A stretch of 64,000 nt of DNA from contig NZ_CP071462.1 in assembly GCF_017352155.2 (NCBI RefSeq), forward strand, positions 1,488,001 through 1,552,000. Direction: 5' to 3'. This stretch comes from Haloterrigena alkaliphila. Lineage in GTDB: Archaea > Halobacteriota > Halobacteria > Halobacteriales > Natrialbaceae. Below are positions 1,847 through 8,523 of the stretch, in pieces (positions within the stretch are counted from its first letter, which is position 1; every line of letters starts with the position of its first letter). The translations under genes and the position numbers were made by a program. The notes beneath the pieces were generated by a model. That model ran no database searches. It saw nothing but the letters and a program-made list of their open reading frames with translations, and was not told the DNA's origin.

Positions 1847-4753
1847 TCACCGATCGCGCTGCGCGGGAAGCGTGAACGAAAACGTCGAGCCCTCGCCGGG
1901 TTCGGAGTCGACCCAGATGTCGCCGCCGTGGCGCTCGACGATCCGTTGACAGAGCGCCAGCCCGATGCCCGTCCCTTCGTACTCGTCGCGACTGTGGAGT
2001 CGGTCGAAGACGGTGAACACGCGGTCTTGGTCCTCCGGATCGATACCGATTCCGTCGTCTCGCACCGAGATGACCCACTCTCGTCCCCGCCGATTCGCGT
2101 AGACGTGAACCCGCGGCGGCTCGTCACCGCTGTACTGGATGGCGTTGTTGAGCAAGTTCTGGAAGACCTGCCGTAACTGGCTGGCGTCGCCCGTCACGCG
2201 GGGGAGTTCCGCGGCCGCGATCTCCGCGTCGGTTTCGTCGATCTGGAGCTGCAAGTCCGCGAGCACGTCGTCGAGAACGGTATCCAGCTCGACCGGTTCG
2301 AACGGATCGCCCCGCGTTTCGATCCGCGAGTACTCGAGGAGGCCGTCGATCATGTCGCGCATGCGTTCGGCCCCGTCGACGGCGAACTCGAGGAACTCCT
2401 CGCCGTCCTCGTCGAAGGCGTCGGCGTAGCGCTGCTCGAGCAACTGGAGGTAGCTCGTGACCATCCGGAGGGGCTCTTGCAGGTCGTGGGAGGCGGCGTA
2501 GGCGAACTGCTCGAGGCGTTCGTTGGATTCCTCGAGCGCCCGTTCCCGCTGTTTTCGATCGAGTTCGAACTTGACCCACTGCGCCATGAGGTGGTGGAAC
2601 GTCCGTTCGGCGTCCGTGAACTCCCGGCCGCGCGAGTCCGTCGATACGAAAAAGAGCGTTCGGTCGGGCTCGTTGTCGAGTTCGATCCGCGTGCCGAGAT
2701 ACGTCTCCACGCCGAACGCCTCGTACGCGAGGGTGTTCCCGAACCCGGACCGTTCGGGATCGGTGACGTCGGTCACCGTCTCGTCACCGACGGTCGTCCG
2801 ACAGTACGTCTCCGAGAGCGGTACCTCCGCGCCCGGCACGAGCTGGTCGTGGTCGCCCTTCGTAGCTTCCACTTCGAACGAATCGGCCGTCGGATCGATC
2901 TGGGCGAGCCCGCCGATTTCGAGATCGAACCGCTCGCGTCCCAGCTCGAAGATGTCGTCCAGTTTCTCCTCGAAGGAACGGTTGGGATCGGCGGCGATCC
3001 GGCTCAACGTCCGCTGATACTGTTCTCGCCGCTCGCGCTCGAGTTCGTAGCTGACCCACTGGCCCATCAGCTCGATGAACGTGCGCTCGGTCTCGGAGAA
3101 CGGCCGGTCGCGGGGCTCCGTGCTGCCGAACCAGAACGTCCCGTACGGTTTCGATCCGTTCATCACCCGCGTCCCGAGGTAGCTCGTCAACCCGAACTCC
3201 CGGTAGATCTGGTCGTCCTGCCAGTCGGTGCCGCGCACGTCAGCCATCGCGACGGGGTCTTCGGTTTCGACGGTGCGGCGACAGAAGTGCCCGTATCCCG
3301 GGTTGGACCACAGCTCCTCCTCGGGGCCGACGCCGAGGCCGACGCCCTTCTCCAGCCGGAATTCGCCGCCCCACGACGGCAGGTGGTTCAGCCCGCCCAT
3401 CTCGAGGCCGAACTGCTCCCGGCCGAGTTCGAGCAACTGTTCGAGTTTCTCGTCGAAGTCGCGGTCGGGGTCGGCCGTGATCCGGTAGCTCTCGCGGAGG
3501 AAGCGCTCGCGGCGCTGGCGCTCCAGTTCGTACTCGACCCACTTGGCCATCATCTCGAGGAACGTTCGTTCGGCGCTGGAGAACCGTTCCTCGCGCGGCG
3601 TCTCGGCGGCGAAACACAGCGTCCCGTACTCCTCGCCGCCGACGTGGACGGTCGTTCCGAAGTAGGCGTCCAGGCCGAACCGCTCGTAGGCGGGATCGTC
3701 GGTCCACCCTCTTTCCGCCGCGTTCCGGACGGAGATCGTACCGGGTGAGGCGAGTAGCTTCTCGCAGTACGTCTCCCTGAGCGAATCGGTCACACCCGGC
3801 TCGATGATCTCGTGGCCCCCGACGGCTTCCACGATTTCGAACGTGTCGTCGTCGTTGGTTTTCGTAAAGTACCCGATCTCGAGACCGAGTCGTTCGCGCC
3901 CCAATCGCAGTAGCTCCTCGATTTTCTCGCCGAACGAGCTGTTCGAATCGGCGATCGTCTCGTACAGTTCCCGCTGATACTGCTCGCGAGTCTCGATCGT
4001 CGTCTGCGTTTGGGTCCGGTCGACCACCGTCGCCAGTTTCCGGTCGAGTTCGCGCGACGGCCGGTCGGGGCCGAAGTACTCCTCGGGCGGCGTGTAGTAG
4101 AAGTTCTGACAGACGGTGGTGTCGTCGTAGACGAGGAACGGGTGGGTCTTGAGAACGTCGTGGAGGACGTCCGCCGGAAATCGGTTCCGGTTGTACTGGC
4201 AGCAAACGGTGTACTCCTCGCCGTCGTAGAGCGGGTTGAGCAGTTCTTCGTACTCGCAGACCTGCTCGAAGTGCGCGTCGTCGCCCTCGAGCGCCCACGT
4301 CATCTCGGCGGCGGCTCTGACCCCTTCGAACCCGTCGGCGGTGGCGTCCGCGAGCGTCTCCTCCCAGAACGCCAGCATCGCCTCGCGGTCGAACTCGCCG
4401 GTCCGACGGTAGGTCTCGTCCTCCGTGTGTACCGAGAGCGCCCCGGACTCGAGGGCGGCGTCGACGTCGATGCCGCGGGCTCGCATCGCCTCGAGTACCT
4501 CGTCGACGGTGTTGTCGTCGGCGACGTAGACGCACCGCTCGCCCCGTTCGAGGCCCTCCCGGATGAACGGGACGACCGCCGCGAACTGCTCGTCTCGGTC
4601 CTCGTAGAGAAGCGCGAAATGGTCGGTGTCGTGGTGGCCGTCGATCGGTTCGATGGGGTCGCGAATGTCGAAACTCGATTGCGAGGCGTCGAGCCTGCGT
4701 CCGGCGGCAGACGTGGGATGGCGACCAGTGTCGTTCGATTGGTGTTCACTCAT
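1847..4753 (-). CDS. Sensor histidine kinase with N-terminal MEDS domain and three GAF domains
   Basis: A 968-residue soluble histidine kinase with no membrane helix. Residues about 45-215 form a MEDS domain (it begins DHFALLYED), a sensory module known from haloarchaeal and methanogen kinases. Three consecutive GAF-type repeats follow, at about 260-405, 420-565 and 585-730. Each is introduced by a similar F-x-EK(I/L)-x-x-(L/I)-(L/F)-x-LGR-(E)-(R/Q) helix, which points to internal duplication. The HisKA segment has the phospho-acceptor His in ASHDLQEP (His756), and the HATPase domain carries the N-box NLLNNAIQYSG and GIGLAL near the end. The signal is not predictable. The gene converges on copB and is followed upstream by copZ on the same strand across a 180-bp AT-rich spacer that could hold its promoter. 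No response regulator is adjacent. Confidence 0.88.
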   Translation of the reverse strand: MSEHQSNDTGRHPTSAAGRRLDASQSSFDIRDPIEPIDGHHDTDHFALLYEDRDEQFAAVVPFIREGLERGERCVYVADDNTVDEVLEAMRARGIDVDAALESGALSVHTEDETYRRTGEFDREAMLAFWEETLADATADGFEGVRAAAEMTWALEGDDAHFEQVCEYEELLNPLYDGEEYTVCCQYNRNRFPADVLHDVLKTHPFLVYDDTTVCQNFYYTPPEEYFGPDRPSRELDRKLATVVDRTQTQTTIETREQYQRELYETIADSNSSFGEKIEELLRLGRERLGLEIGYFTKTNDDDTFEIVEAVGGHEIIEPGVTDSLRETYCEKLLASPGTISVRNAAERGWTDDPAYERFGLDAYFGTTVHVGGEEYGTLCFAAETPREERFSSAERTFLEMMAKWVEYELERQRRERFLRESYRITADPDRDFDEKLEQLLELGREQFGLEMGGLNHLPSWGGEFRLEKGVGLGVGPEEELWSNPGYGHFCRRTVETEDPVAMADVRGTDWQDDQIYREFGLTSYLGTRVMNGSKPYGTFWFGSTEPRDRPFSETERTFIELMGQWVSYELERERREQYQRTLSRIAADPNRSFEEKLDDIFELGRERFDLEIGGLAQIDPTADSFEVEATKGDHDQLVPGAEVPLSETYCRTTVGDETVTDVTDPERSGFGNTLAYEAFGVETYLGTRIELDNEPDRTLFFVSTDSRGREFTDAERTFHHLMAQWVKFELDRKQRERALEESNERLEQFAYAASHDLQEPLRMVTSYLQLLEQRYADAFDEDGEEFLEFAVDGAERMRDMIDGLLEYSRIETRGDPFEPVELDTVLDDVLADLQLQIDETDAEIAAAELPRVTGDASQLRQVFQNLLNNAIQYSGDEPPRVHVYANRRGREWVISVRDDGIGIDPEDQDRVFTVFDRLHSRDEYEGTGIGLALCQRIVERHGGDIWVDSEPGEGSTFSFTLPAQRDR

Positions 4754-4936: not shown

Positions 4937-5134
4937 TCACGCCGACGCGTCGTATCCGGCCTCGTCGACGGCAGCGACGAGCGTTCGCGCCTCCGCGTCG
5001 CCCTCGACAGTCGCCCGCGCCGCCTCCCGGTCGACAGCTACTGACTCGACGCCTTCGACGCCCTCGAGCGCCTCCTCGACGGTTTGCTCGCAGTGTTCGC
5101 AGGACATGCCTTCGACGGTGATGGTCTGACTCAT
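4937..5134 (-). CDS. copZ: Heavy-metal-associated (HMA) copper chaperone
   Basis: A 65-residue single HMA domain with the metal-binding motif MSCEHC near the N-terminus and the usual beta-alpha-beta-beta-alpha-beta pattern, ending GYDASA. It probably delivers Cu(I) to CopA, which begins 0.8 kb away and carries two domains of the same type. The start is the ATG at 5134-5132; the longer open frame upstream runs antisense to the divergent regulator gene and is not coding. The gene is divergent from the AsnC-TRASH regulator with 126 bp between starts, and that gap contains one copy of the 12-bp element also found before copA, so co-regulation is likely. Confidence 0.92.
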   Translation of the reverse strand: MSQTITVEGMSCEHCEQTVEEALEGVEGVESVAVDREAARATVEGDAEARTLVAAVDEAGYDASA

Positions 5135-5204
5135 ACGAGGACGTAGGGGCGCCGGGTCTTTGTGGGTTTCTGCTTTCGACGCGAGCGAGAACGGGCGTTC
5201 GAGT

Positions 5205-5216
5205 TTCGATTCCAAA
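5205..5216. promoter_or_regulatory. Putative copper-regulator operator, copy 1
   Basis: The 12-mer TTCGATTCCAAA lies 44 bp before the regulator ATG (5261), in the divergent region shared with copZ. It is identical to a second copy before copA. Binding by the AsnC-TRASH protein is inference. Confidence 0.55.
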
Positions 5217-5260
5217 GTGACCGTCGCTATCCTCTTTGCACTCGAGTCCGAACTGGCGGT

Positions 5261-5848
5261 ATGCGCGACCTCGACGAAACCGACATGGAAATTCTGCGGC
5301 TGCTGGGCGAGGACGCTCGCCGGCCGTACAGCGAGATCGCCGAGCGGGTCGGCCTCTCCGGGCCGGCCGTCTCCGACCGCGTTCGGCGACTCGAGGAGGC
5401 CGGCGTCATCGAGGGCTTCACCGTCGACGTGGACCAGTCCCAGCTCAGAGCCGGGATTCCGGTGTTCGTGCGGGCGAACGTTCCCGCGGGCGACGTCGAC
5501 GACTGCAGGGCGGCCGTCGCGGACGCCGACGCCGTCGAGCACGTGTTCGTCACCGCCGACGGCGAGGTCTGGTTCTACGCCCGAGCGCAGGTCCAGCGGG
5601 TTCGCGAGTGGCTCGACGGCCTCTTCCCCGCCGACGGCGTCGCCTACGACGTGACGCTGCTGGACGACGCCGAGTGGACGCCGTCGCTCGACGGCACGTC
5701 GTTCGCGCTCACCTGCGCGGAGTGTGGCAACACCGTCGACAGCGAGGGGGAATCGACGCGCATCGACGGTGAAGTGTACCACTTCTGCTGTCCGTCGTGC
5801 TCGAGCCGGTTCGACGCGCGGTACACTCGACTCGAGGAGGGCGCGTGA
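5261..5848 (+). CDS. Lrp/AsnC-family transcriptional regulator with C-terminal TRASH metal-binding domain
   Basis: A 195-residue regulator. Residues 1-60 are an Lrp-type winged helix (it begins MRDLDETDMEILRLL), about 65-135 are an AsnC ligand-binding-like fold, and about 148-190 are a TRASH domain with cysteines in TCAECGN and FCCPSC that should coordinate a metal. In Halobacterium salinarum a protein of this architecture (VNG1179C) was reported to be needed for copper-responsive induction of a copper ATPase. The position here, between copZ and copA, fits the same role. The ATG at 5261 is chosen because the HTH begins immediately; the frame upstream lacks similarity. The stop is only 2 bp before the second 12-bp element and 77 bp before copA. 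Confidence 0.92.
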   Translation: MRDLDETDMEILRLLGEDARRPYSEIAERVGLSGPAVSDRVRRLEEAGVIEGFTVDVDQSQLRAGIPVFVRANVPAGDVDDCRAAVADADAVEHVFVTADGEVWFYARAQVQRVREWLDGLFPADGVAYDVTLLDDAEWTPSLDGTSFALTCAECGNTVDSEGESTRIDGEVYHFCCPSCSSRFDARYTRLEEGA

Positions 5849-5850
5849 CC

Positions 5851-5862
5851 TTCGATTCCAAA
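5851..5862. promoter_or_regulatory. Putative copper-regulator operator, copy 2
   Basis: An exact second copy of TTCGATTCCAAA in the same orientation, 63 bp before the copA ATG and just after the regulator stop codon. Exact repetition at both promoters of the copper locus, and in neither case inside the coding sequence, is the evidence for an operator. Confidence 0.55.
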
Positions 5863-5925
5863 CCGAGCGCGCCGCCGAACTTCGGAGTCTGACCAGTAAA
5901 GGGGGTAAGGCGGGACCGCCTAGTA

Positions 5926-8523
5926 ATGAGTACCCGGACCGCGCACCTGGACGTTCGGGGCATGAGCTGTGCGAACTGCTCGCAGACGATCAGCGATGCC
6001 CTGGTATCCCTCGACGGCGTCAGCGAGGCGAACGCCAACTTCGCCACCGACGAGGCGACCGTCGAGTACGACCCCGAGGCGGTATCGCTCGCCGAGATAT
6101 ACGACGCGGTCGAGACGGCCGGCTACGAGGCCGAGCGCTCGAGTCGCTCCATCGGCATCACGGACATGACCTGCGCGAACTGCGCGGAGACCAACGAGTC
6201 GGCGCTGGAGTCCGTCCCCGGCGTCGTCGAGGCGGAGGTCAACTACGCGACCGACGAGGCGACCGTCGCGTACAATCCGAGCGACGTCTCGCTCGAGGAC
6301 CTGTACGTGGCCATCGAGGACGCCGGCTACACGCCCGTCCGCGACGACGGTGGCGAGGAATCGGACCAGGAGCGCCGCGACGCGGCCAGGCAGGCCGAGA
6401 TCCGCAAACACCGCCGACTGACGCTGTTCGGGGCGATCCTGACGGCGCCGTTCCTGCTGTTCATCGCCGATCGGCTCCTGCTCGACGGGGCGATTCTCCC
6501 CGAGACGATCCTCGGCGTCGAGTTCGGCTGGCTCGAGTTCCTGCTCGCGACGCCGGTCTACCTCGTGCTCGGCCGGGAGTTCCTCGCAAACTCCTACACC
6601 GCGCTCGCGAAGAATCGGACCGCCAACATGGACGTGCTGATCGCGCTGGGCTCCTCGACGGCCTACGTCTACAGCCTCGTCGTCCTGCTGGGCCTGCTCG
6701 CGGGGAACCTCTACTTCGACACCGCCGCGTTGATCCTCGTGTTCATCACGCTGGGCAACTACCTCGAGGCCCGCTCGAAGGGCCGGGCCGGCGACGCGCT
6801 GCGGAAACTCCTCGAGATGGAGGCCGAGACGGCCACGCTGGTCGACGACGAGGGGAACGAAGAGGAGGTGCCCCTCGAGGACGTCTCGGTCGGCGACCGG
6901 ATGAAGGTCCGGCCGGGCGAGAAGGTGCCGACGGACGGCGTCGTCGTCGACGGCCAGTCCGCGGTCGACGAGTCGATGGTGACCGGCGAGTCGGTCCCCG
7001 TCGAGAAGGAGGAGGGCGACGAGGTGATCGGCTCGACGATCAACGAGAACGGCGTGCTGGTCGTCGAGGCGACGAAGGTCGGCTCGGACACGGCCCTGCA
7101 GGGAATCGTGCAGACCGTCAAGGAGGCCCAGTCCCGCCAGCCGGAGATCCAGAACCTCGTGGACCGCATCTCGGCGTACTTCGTCCCCGCGGTCATCCTC
7201 AACGCGGCGTTCTGGGGGCTGGTCTGGTTCCTCTTCCCCGACGCGCTCGCGGGCGTCGCGAGCGGTATCCCGGTGCTGGAACTGGTCGGCGGCGGCCCGG
7301 CCGCCCTCTCGACGTTCGAGTTCGCCGTCGTCGTCTTCGCCTCGGCCGTGTTGATCGCCTGTCCCTGCGCGCTGGGGCTGGCGACGCCCGCGGCGACGAT
7401 GGTCGGCTCCACCCTCGGCGCGCAGAACGGCGTCCTGTTCAAGGGCGGCGATATCTTGGAGCGCGCGAGGGACGTCGACACCGTCGTCTTCGACAAGACC
7501 GGGACGCTGACGACCGGCGAGATGACGCTGACCGACGTGGTCGCGCTCGAGGGCGATGGCGACCGCGCGGCCGCGGACGGCGGGGATGCGGCCGCAGACG
7601 GCGGTGCAGTAGTGGCTCGCGAGTCGCTCGACGAGCGCGAGGTCCTTCGCCTCGCGGCCAGCGCCGAGCGCAACAGCGAACACCCGCTCGCGCAGGCCAT
7701 CGTCGAGGGCGCCGAGGAGCGCGGCCTCGAGCTAACCGACCCCGAGTCGTTCGAGAACGTCCCCGGACAGGGCGTCCGGGCGACCGTCGAGGGCCGCGAG
7801 GTGCTGGTCGGCAACCGCAGACTGCTCGAGGGGGAAGGCGTCGATCCCGCGCCCGCCGCCGAGGCGATGGAACGCCTCGAGCGCGAGGGCAAGACCGCCA
7901 TGCTGGTCGCCGTCGACGGCGCGGTCGCCGGCGTGGTCGCGGACGCCGACACGGTCAAGGAGAGCTCGCAGGAGGCGGTCGCCGCCCTGCGCGAGCGCGG
8001 CCTCGACGTCATGCTGATCACCGGCGACAACGAGCGGACGGCCCGCGCGGTCGCCGAACGCGTCGGGATCGATCCCGAGAACGTCCGCGCGGGCGTCCTG
8101 CCGGAGGACAAGGCCGACGCGCTCGAGCCCATCCAGGCCGAGGGGCGGAAGGCGATGATGGTCGGCGACGGGGTCAACGACGCGCCGGCGCTGGCCGTCG
8201 CCCACGTCGGGACGGCCATCGGCTCCGGGACGGACGTGGCCATCGAGGCGGCGGACGTGACGCTGATGCGCGACGACCCCCTCGACGTGGTGAAGGCGAT
8301 CCGCATCTCCGAGGCGACGCTGGCGAAGATCAAGCAGAACCTCGTCTGGGCGCTGGGGTACAACACGACGCTGATCCCGCTGGCCTCGCTGGGCCTGCTC
8401 CAGCCGGTGCTCGCGGCCGGCGCGATGGCGCTGTCGTCGGTCTCGGTGCTCTCGAACAGCCTGCTGTTCCGCCGGTACACCCCGGATCACGACTACGAAC
8501 TGTTCGGACGACTCCGGCGCTAG
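5926..8523 (+). CDS. copA: Copper-translocating P1B-type ATPase CopA
   Basis: An 865-residue Cu(I) export ATPase of the cytoplasmic membrane. Two N-terminal HMA domains carry GMSCANC (Cys15, Cys18) and DMTCANC (Cys83, Cys86). Eight predicted helices follow. TGES is at about residue 353, the transport-site CPC at about 481, DKTGT at about 523, the HP dipeptide in SEHPLAQ at about 585 and GDGVND at about 747. Length and order match full CopA. A hydrophilic Ala/Asp/Gly-rich insertion ([15 protein letters not shown]) lies between the phosphorylation site and the N-domain and is probably a flexible loop. It follows the regulator gene by 77 bp and has its own 12-bp putative operator. Together with the chaperone it forms the copper-efflux unit. 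Confidence 0.97.

Follow-up and report, generated by a model that had tools for sequence, protein, structure and literature searches.

Regulators of the Lrp/AsnC family generally bind 15-bp palindromic dimer sites, which often stand in helically phased arrays. Among the members that carry a TRASH domain, CopR of Pyrococcus furiosus is described as an octamer that binds its DNA with or without copper, at a motif directly upstream of the BRE, and its operator, TTNNCAWWWTGNNAA, has been published (PMC7830388). In Sulfolobus/Saccharolobus, as in the locus described below, a TRASH regulator, a chaperone gene and copA are clustered, and copA is reported to be positively controlled (PMC7830388, PMC3600143).

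The haloarchaeal regulator VNG1179C/CopR of Halobacterium salinarum has been studied genetically at least since 2006 (PMC1779511). It is likewise an Lrp-type protein with a TRASH domain, and its described targets, a copA-type ATPase and HMA chaperones, match the genes of our locus (PMC3551603, PMC1779511, PMC3600143, PMC5605881). A personal communication cited in PMC1779511 states that it is required for copper induction of the ATPase gene yvgX; yvgX and two HMA chaperone genes are copper-induced and said to be CopR-regulated (PMC3551603; reviewed in PMC3600143). The protein is termed a repressor of the pump in PMC5605881 and is cited as an activator in PMC7830388. Halobacterium has eight Lrp-family regulators, and a figure gives a putative motif for each FFRP (PMC4236453); in another study, a de novo search of ChIP-bound promoters yielded FFRP motifs that were not clearly separable (PMC4177876). 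Within the accessible text of PMC3551603, PMC1779511, PMC3600143 and PMC5605881, we found no operator sequence for Halobacterium CopR. In Haloferax alexandrinus, silver raises the expression of copA, a neighbouring lrp gene and copZ (PMC10694973).

The window analysed here is a stretch of 64,000 nucleotides of Haloterrigena alkaliphila that holds a copper locus whose nearest named counterparts are in Natrinema and Haloterrigena. The original prediction reported a 12-bp element, TTCGATTCCAAA, identical at the promoters of the copper regulator and of copA, and proposed it as the binding site of the AsnC-TRASH regulator, a type of protein for which it knew of no established operator. The element is present letter for letter at 5205-5216 and 5851-5862, with no third exact copy in the whole genome (three contigs, 4,270,687 bases). 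Both copies do lie at promoters of the copper locus, and two points need amending: the 12-mer is the core of a longer, 15-bp imperfect palindrome with the consensus CTTTSGAWTCSAAAG, and the first copy stands between the divergent genes copR (start 5261) and copZ (start 5134) and does not belong to a copR promoter alone. Since the Pyrococcus operator is published, the remark on the lack of an established operator can apply to haloarchaea at most. The features of the locus are as follows:

4937..5134, minus strand: copZ, a 65-aa HMA copper chaperone, divergent from copR (Pfam HMA, 1.1e-20).
5166..5172, minus strand: TATA-like element CAGAAAC of the chaperone gene, assigned by its position directly after the weak partner and conserved in aligned chaperone promoters.
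5173..5187, no strand: putative weak partner of operator 1, CTTTCGACGCGAGCG, matrix score 4.8, with one intact half-site, centred 30 bp from operator 1 in the direction of copZ.
5203..5217, no strand: predicted operator 1, GTTTCGATTCCAAAG, which holds the 12-mer at 5205-5216; matrix score 21.6, the best in the window.
5261..5848, plus strand: copR, 195 aa, an AsnC-type winged helix with a TRASH_HVO_1752_C domain (Pfam PF13404, 5.8e-18; PF24273, 2.9e-26).
5849..5863, no strand: predicted operator 2, CCTTCGATTCCAAAC, which holds the 12-mer at 5851-5862; matrix score 18.9, the second in the window.
5880..5894, no strand: putative weak partner of operator 2, CTTCGGAGTCTGACC, matrix score 7.3, with its centre 31 bp nearer copA.
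5895..5901, plus strand: TATA-like element AGTAAAG of copA, assigned by its position directly after the weak partner; its A-rich columns are conserved in aligned copA promoters.
5926..8523, plus strand: copA, an 865-aa copper-type P-type ATPase with two HMA domains (Pfam, NCBIfam).

The copZ product scores 85.1 bits against the NCBIfam model CopZ_AFE_1862 (cut-off 85). The PF13404 match places CopR in the Lrp/AsnC family, and its top PDB matches are LrpA (1i1g) and PH1519 (2cyy, 1ri7). Another copper-type P-type ATPase (NCBIfam TIGR01511) is encoded at the window's left end, at 16-1836, and a gene for a large histidine kinase (1847-4753, minus strand) stands between it and copR. In several relatives, an ATPase with a CPH motif is found close to the copR-copZ locus, in some of them just downstream of the chaperone gene on the same strand.

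Set beside the Pyrococcus system, the locus shows a shared architecture in different letters. Both regulators combine AsnC/Lrp and TRASH domains, and the Pyrococcus protein is thought to wrap DNA as an oligomer of dimers (PMC7830388). The published Pyrococcus operator resembles ours in being a 15-bp semi-palindrome with outer T- and A-tracts and an A/T centre that is placed at the copA and copR promoters. In both, a site lies directly upstream of the BRE and the target promoters have unusual TATA elements. The core letters differ, with GAWTC and flanking S in haloarchaea as against CAWWWTG in Pyrococcus, and the letters of the published Pyrococcus operator are not those of the sites here. Unlike in Pyrococcus, some 39 bp separate the strong haloarchaeal site from the TATA-like element downstream, and it is a weaker, 31-bp-phased partner that stands at the BRE. 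Gene order also differs, as copR here diverges from copZ with copA downstream of copR, whereas in Pyrococcus copR diverges from copA. Compared with Lrp/AsnC operators in general, the haloarchaeal site has letters specific to copper promoters, and the predicted effector is copper, acting via the TRASH domain, and not an amino acid.

The palindrome was derived from 57 haloarchaeal loci with a regulator relative and the window, omitting two bacterial fragments (L066, L067) and one locus at a contig edge (L053). The copR training DNA comprised 145 bp upstream of the gene in 57 regions, reduced to 48 by the removal of nine near-identical ones, and the copA training DNA comprised 110 bp upstream in 24 regions after ambiguous or redundant starts were dropped. 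Expectation-maximisation returned one dominant motif in both sets, TTTSGAWTCSAAA, which with C/G outside becomes CTTTSGAWTCSAAAG; the motif log-likelihoods were 261 and 198, compared with 22-27 for shuffles. The palindrome arose without any symmetry being imposed, and it has the length and symmetry (about 15 bp) of an Lrp/AsnC-type dimer operator. The exact 12-mer was ruled out as the conserved unit, being present letter for letter in only some relatives, and the 15-bp palindrome was kept instead. Upstream of copR, a threshold of 10 bits is reached in 37 of 48 non-redundant regions, which are also the training regions, against a mean of 0.4 and a maximum of 2 in shuffles; the 11 that fall below belong mostly to divergent regulators. 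Our shuffles preserve base composition only, not dinucleotides. Column-permuted matrices gave a mean of 1.43 and a maximum of 74 hits at 10 bits on 95 copA promoters; because some column permutations reproduce the motif, sequence shuffles and flanking windows were preferred as controls.

The copA promoters provided the broadest test. From a 145-genome search of the class Halobacteria, 100 stretches were hand-picked among the roughly 150 matches listed, leaving aside 12 Natrinema-like matches of at least 85% identity, a number of identical copies and, so as to stop at 100, some others; dropping five near-identical promoters left 95, which were scanned from -140 to -25 relative to the start codon. 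Lack of conservation at the copA promoters of related species, the outcome that would have counted against the original prediction, is not what we see: at thresholds of 10, 12 and 14 bits, the site is present in 76, 64 and 49 of the 95, all among the matches listed, whereas the same promoters shuffled yield a mean of 0.9 and a maximum of 4 at 10 bits, and four windows further upstream, scanned with the same matrix, yield 0-2 of 95. A matrix built from regulator-upstream DNA alone gave an independent result on 88 copA promoters that share no 24-mer with the training loci, 67 of which reach 10 bits (shuffles: mean 1.0, maximum 4). The remaining 19 of the 95 promoters are below 10 bits, and the plasmid copA of the same genome is one of them. 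These counts are not counts of independent events, because the genomes are related.

Position is conserved along with sequence. The site usually lies 75-82 bp ahead of the copA start codon, and for 82 of 95 promoters the top-scoring site is in one of two bins chosen post hoc, -82 to -75 and -48 to -45, which together make up 12 of the 116 allowed positions. In 59 of 100 copA regions, tblastn places a copR relative no more than 1.3 kb upstream of copA, and this relative often carries the site itself. Sites of at least 10 bits occur at 46 of 55 copA genes with a copR relative within 1.3 kb and at 30 of 40 without one; their presence whether or not copR adjoins copA suggests that the site may act in trans.

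In the window itself, operator 1 is centred 76 bp from the start of copZ (5134, minus strand) and 51 bp from that of copR (5261), upstream of both, and operator 2 is centred 70 bp upstream of the copA start (5926). The third-best matrix score in the window is 11.9, a comparison in which both copies belonged to the training set of the matrix. A chaperone gene divergent from copR was found in 33 of 48 loci; 24 of these have their best site at -76 to -80, and the other nine have it at -46 to -48, where the weak partner of operator 1 stands in the window. Because this divergent chaperone has a copA-like layout, operator 1 is as much the chaperone's as the regulator's.

With promoters aligned on the distal site, a second site scoring above 4 appears at +31 bp, nearer the gene, in 18 of 59, while other offsets reach at most 3, save for a one-base shift (4); in the independent copA set, a second site stands exactly at +31 in 24 of 58, and the next-best offsets reach 10. 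The +31 partner is thus common but not universal, and its spacing fits the helically phased sites of Lrp/AsnC operators.

Chaperone genes away from copR carry the site too, at a lower rate than copA. We hand-picked 40 further chaperone genes, of which eight adjoin copR, leaving 32 (27 non-redundant); 17 of the 32, or 13 of the 27, score at least 10 bits (shuffles: mean 0.3, maximum 2), mostly at -75 to -79 or -46 to -52, and 14 of the 27 have no site at 10 bits. For two of the 27 (L250, L281), the end of a copA gene lies in the same stretch.

The perfect consensus CTTTSGAWTCSAAAG occurs at 41 sites in 39 of 381 genomes and 21 genera, and the reversed control in one genome. For most of these sites, gene context rests on tblastn with three proteins of the window and not on annotation. 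A start of copA, copR or a chaperone gene lies 10-130 bp away at 27 of the 34 perfect sites examined, and ten of these 27 are from one genus; three of the seven sites beyond the 34 are at copper genes by their coordinates, and, with the L291 site described below, at least 31 of the 41 lie at copA, copR or chaperone genes. No copper gene is evident at four of the 34 (L289, L290, L120, L137) or near one further perfect site from another search (L140), each of the five at about position 1501-1515. The site in L120 is some 40 bp before what appears by eye to be a membrane-transporter gene. In L291 (1500-1610), a perfect site follows copR and precedes a short stretch that resembles the C-terminal part of copA, apparently a copA remnant.

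Two perfect sites in different genera precede genes for small Met/Gly-rich SHOCT membrane proteins (L284:1619-1984 and L302:1617-1973). A SHOCT membrane protein is reported to be silver-induced in Haloferax alexandrinus (PMC10694973). In a family sample made up of the best 30 loci of a 97-genome search (L313-L342), 10 of 18 non-redundant SHOCT promoters, excluding the query locus, reach 10 bits, whereas matched shuffles give a mean of 0.25 and a maximum of 2. Their sites lie at -78 to -133 from the assumed ATG, at distances more varied than at copA. Some SHOCT genes are near cop genes, and the genome of H. alkaliphila has two SHOCT matches on contig C2, at 267355-267684 and 271081-271383.

Single mismatches erode the association with copper genes: only 8 of 29 one-mismatch sites examined in relatives are at cop genes, so that, outside promoters, a match must be near-perfect to be specific. 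A wider regulon drawn from sites with one or two mismatches was considered and no targets are claimed from it, as these sites lie mostly in or beside genes without a copper role recognisable by eye. The genome of H. alkaliphila has 14 places within two mismatches of CTTTSGAWTCSAAAG, none of them perfect, and operator 1 is the only one with a single mismatch. The top three by matrix score are the chromosomal copR site (21.6), a site at a second-regulator promoter on contig C2 (19.7) and the chromosomal copA site (18.9); the remaining 11 are in or beside genes for which no copper role was evident by eye. Contig C2, a plasmid, holds a second cop locus (G000:C2:248957-253198; L111, L142, L143), in which an AsnC-TRASH regulator has its own predicted operator, CTTTGGATTCTAAAC, 49 bp before the start. 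The plasmid copA is 79% identical to that of the window, and its promoter has only a weak site, at -77 (7.3).

We consider it very probable, from sequence comparison, that the palindrome CTTTSGAWTCSAAAG is the operator of haloarchaeal CopR, the AsnC-TRASH protein encoded at 5261-5848. The corresponding part of the original prediction gains support from the occurrence of the site at copA, at chaperone genes and at the plasmid regulator, and from the perfect form lying mostly at copper genes; that CopR is the binder is what we infer from these associations, and it fits the published genetics of Halobacterium. The core of the recognition helix, PAVSDR, is present in 47 of 48 aligned regulators. 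Of the 37 regulators that have a good upstream site, 1 departs from G at the residue before this core; of the 11 that lack such a site, 7 do. This pattern fits a co-variation of the residue with the site and is confounded by relatedness.

The same associations would arise if the palindrome served some other copper- or silver-responsive factor that controls copA, copZ and copR together, and haloarchaea carry several Lrp-family regulators. We nonetheless regard this as unlikely, given that a copR relative precedes copA in 59 of 100 regions and often carries the site, that 388 of 391 haloarchaeal genomes have a PF24273 match, that yvgX is reported without copper induction in a VNG1179C deletion (PMC1779511), and that the size of the palindrome and its 31-bp phasing fit an Lrp-type oligomer. 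A still smaller probability, slight by our estimate, falls to a core promoter element (a BRE/TATA variant) or some general promoter signal, which the A/T-rich composition, the location upstream of start codons and the weaker copy abutting the TATA-like element might suggest; the strong copy, however, has its centre about 39 bp ahead of that element and forms a palindrome, 4.27 Mb contain just 14 matches with up to two mismatches, and the perfect copies concentrate at copper genes.

The repeat in the window could in principle be a functionless product of chance or of a recent duplication of promoter DNA, as the 12-mer was picked by eye post hoc and this GC-rich window contains 103 exact 12-mer pairs no more than 700 bp apart; allowing two mismatches, TTCGATTCCAAA is not unusual in the window either, with six matches where 2.6 are expected and 5 of 100 shuffles reaching six. 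Against chance, the TTCGATTCCAAA pair is the only A/T-rich one among the 103, with at least eight A/T where the others have at most five, and no pair with eight or more arose in 40 first-order Markov simulations of the window. The bases flanking the two copies are unlike. Both versions are refuted by the conservation tests, which find the site at fixed positions across the class Halobacteria, and of the readings weighed here we give this one the least credence, next to none.

If CopR is the binder, as we prefer, the arrangement can be read as a working model. The 15-bp palindrome would have the size expected for a single Lrp-type dimer. In most copA and copZ genes that carry it, the strong site lies about 77 bp ahead of the start codon, and many promoters add a weaker one, 30-31 bp or three helical turns closer to the gene, where it would touch the BRE/TATA region. 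A CopR oligomer, perhaps an octamer as in Pyrococcus, could hold both sites on one face of the wrapped DNA; this placement over the distal operator and the BRE partner is proposed because of haloarchaeal genetics together with the behaviour of Pyrococcus CopR. By the same analogy, copper bound to the TRASH domain might then rearrange the complex so that TBP/TFB can use the poor TATA element, inducing copA and copZ. Operator 1, lying also just upstream of the copR promoter, may adjust the level of the regulator itself. Silver induces the lrp gene in Haloferax alexandrinus, as noted above, whereas expression of the Halobacterium regulator is reported to be unchanged under copper (PMC3551603), and the sign of autoregulation may differ among haloarchaea.

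A broader proposal, on which our judgement is evenly balanced, is that of a class-wide haloarchaeal CopR regulon with a 31-bp-phased double operator, which would include the Met/Gly-rich SHOCT membrane proteins as an envelope copper handler. The letters of the haloarchaeal operator appear to be new, while AsnC-TRASH operators as such were already known from Pyrococcus: a full-text search of the literature, with the figure motifs of PMC4236453 outside the comparison, returned no report of the palindrome CTTTSGAWTCSAAAG in the text available. A precise operator of fixed geometry offers a testable binding site and would make the copper regulon readable from haloarchaeal genomes, and the promoter that bears it might serve for copper-inducible expression in high-salt hosts. 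Set against the Pyrococcus operator, it would present one archaeal metalloregulator family that alters the letters it reads in DNA and keeps the layout in which it reads them.
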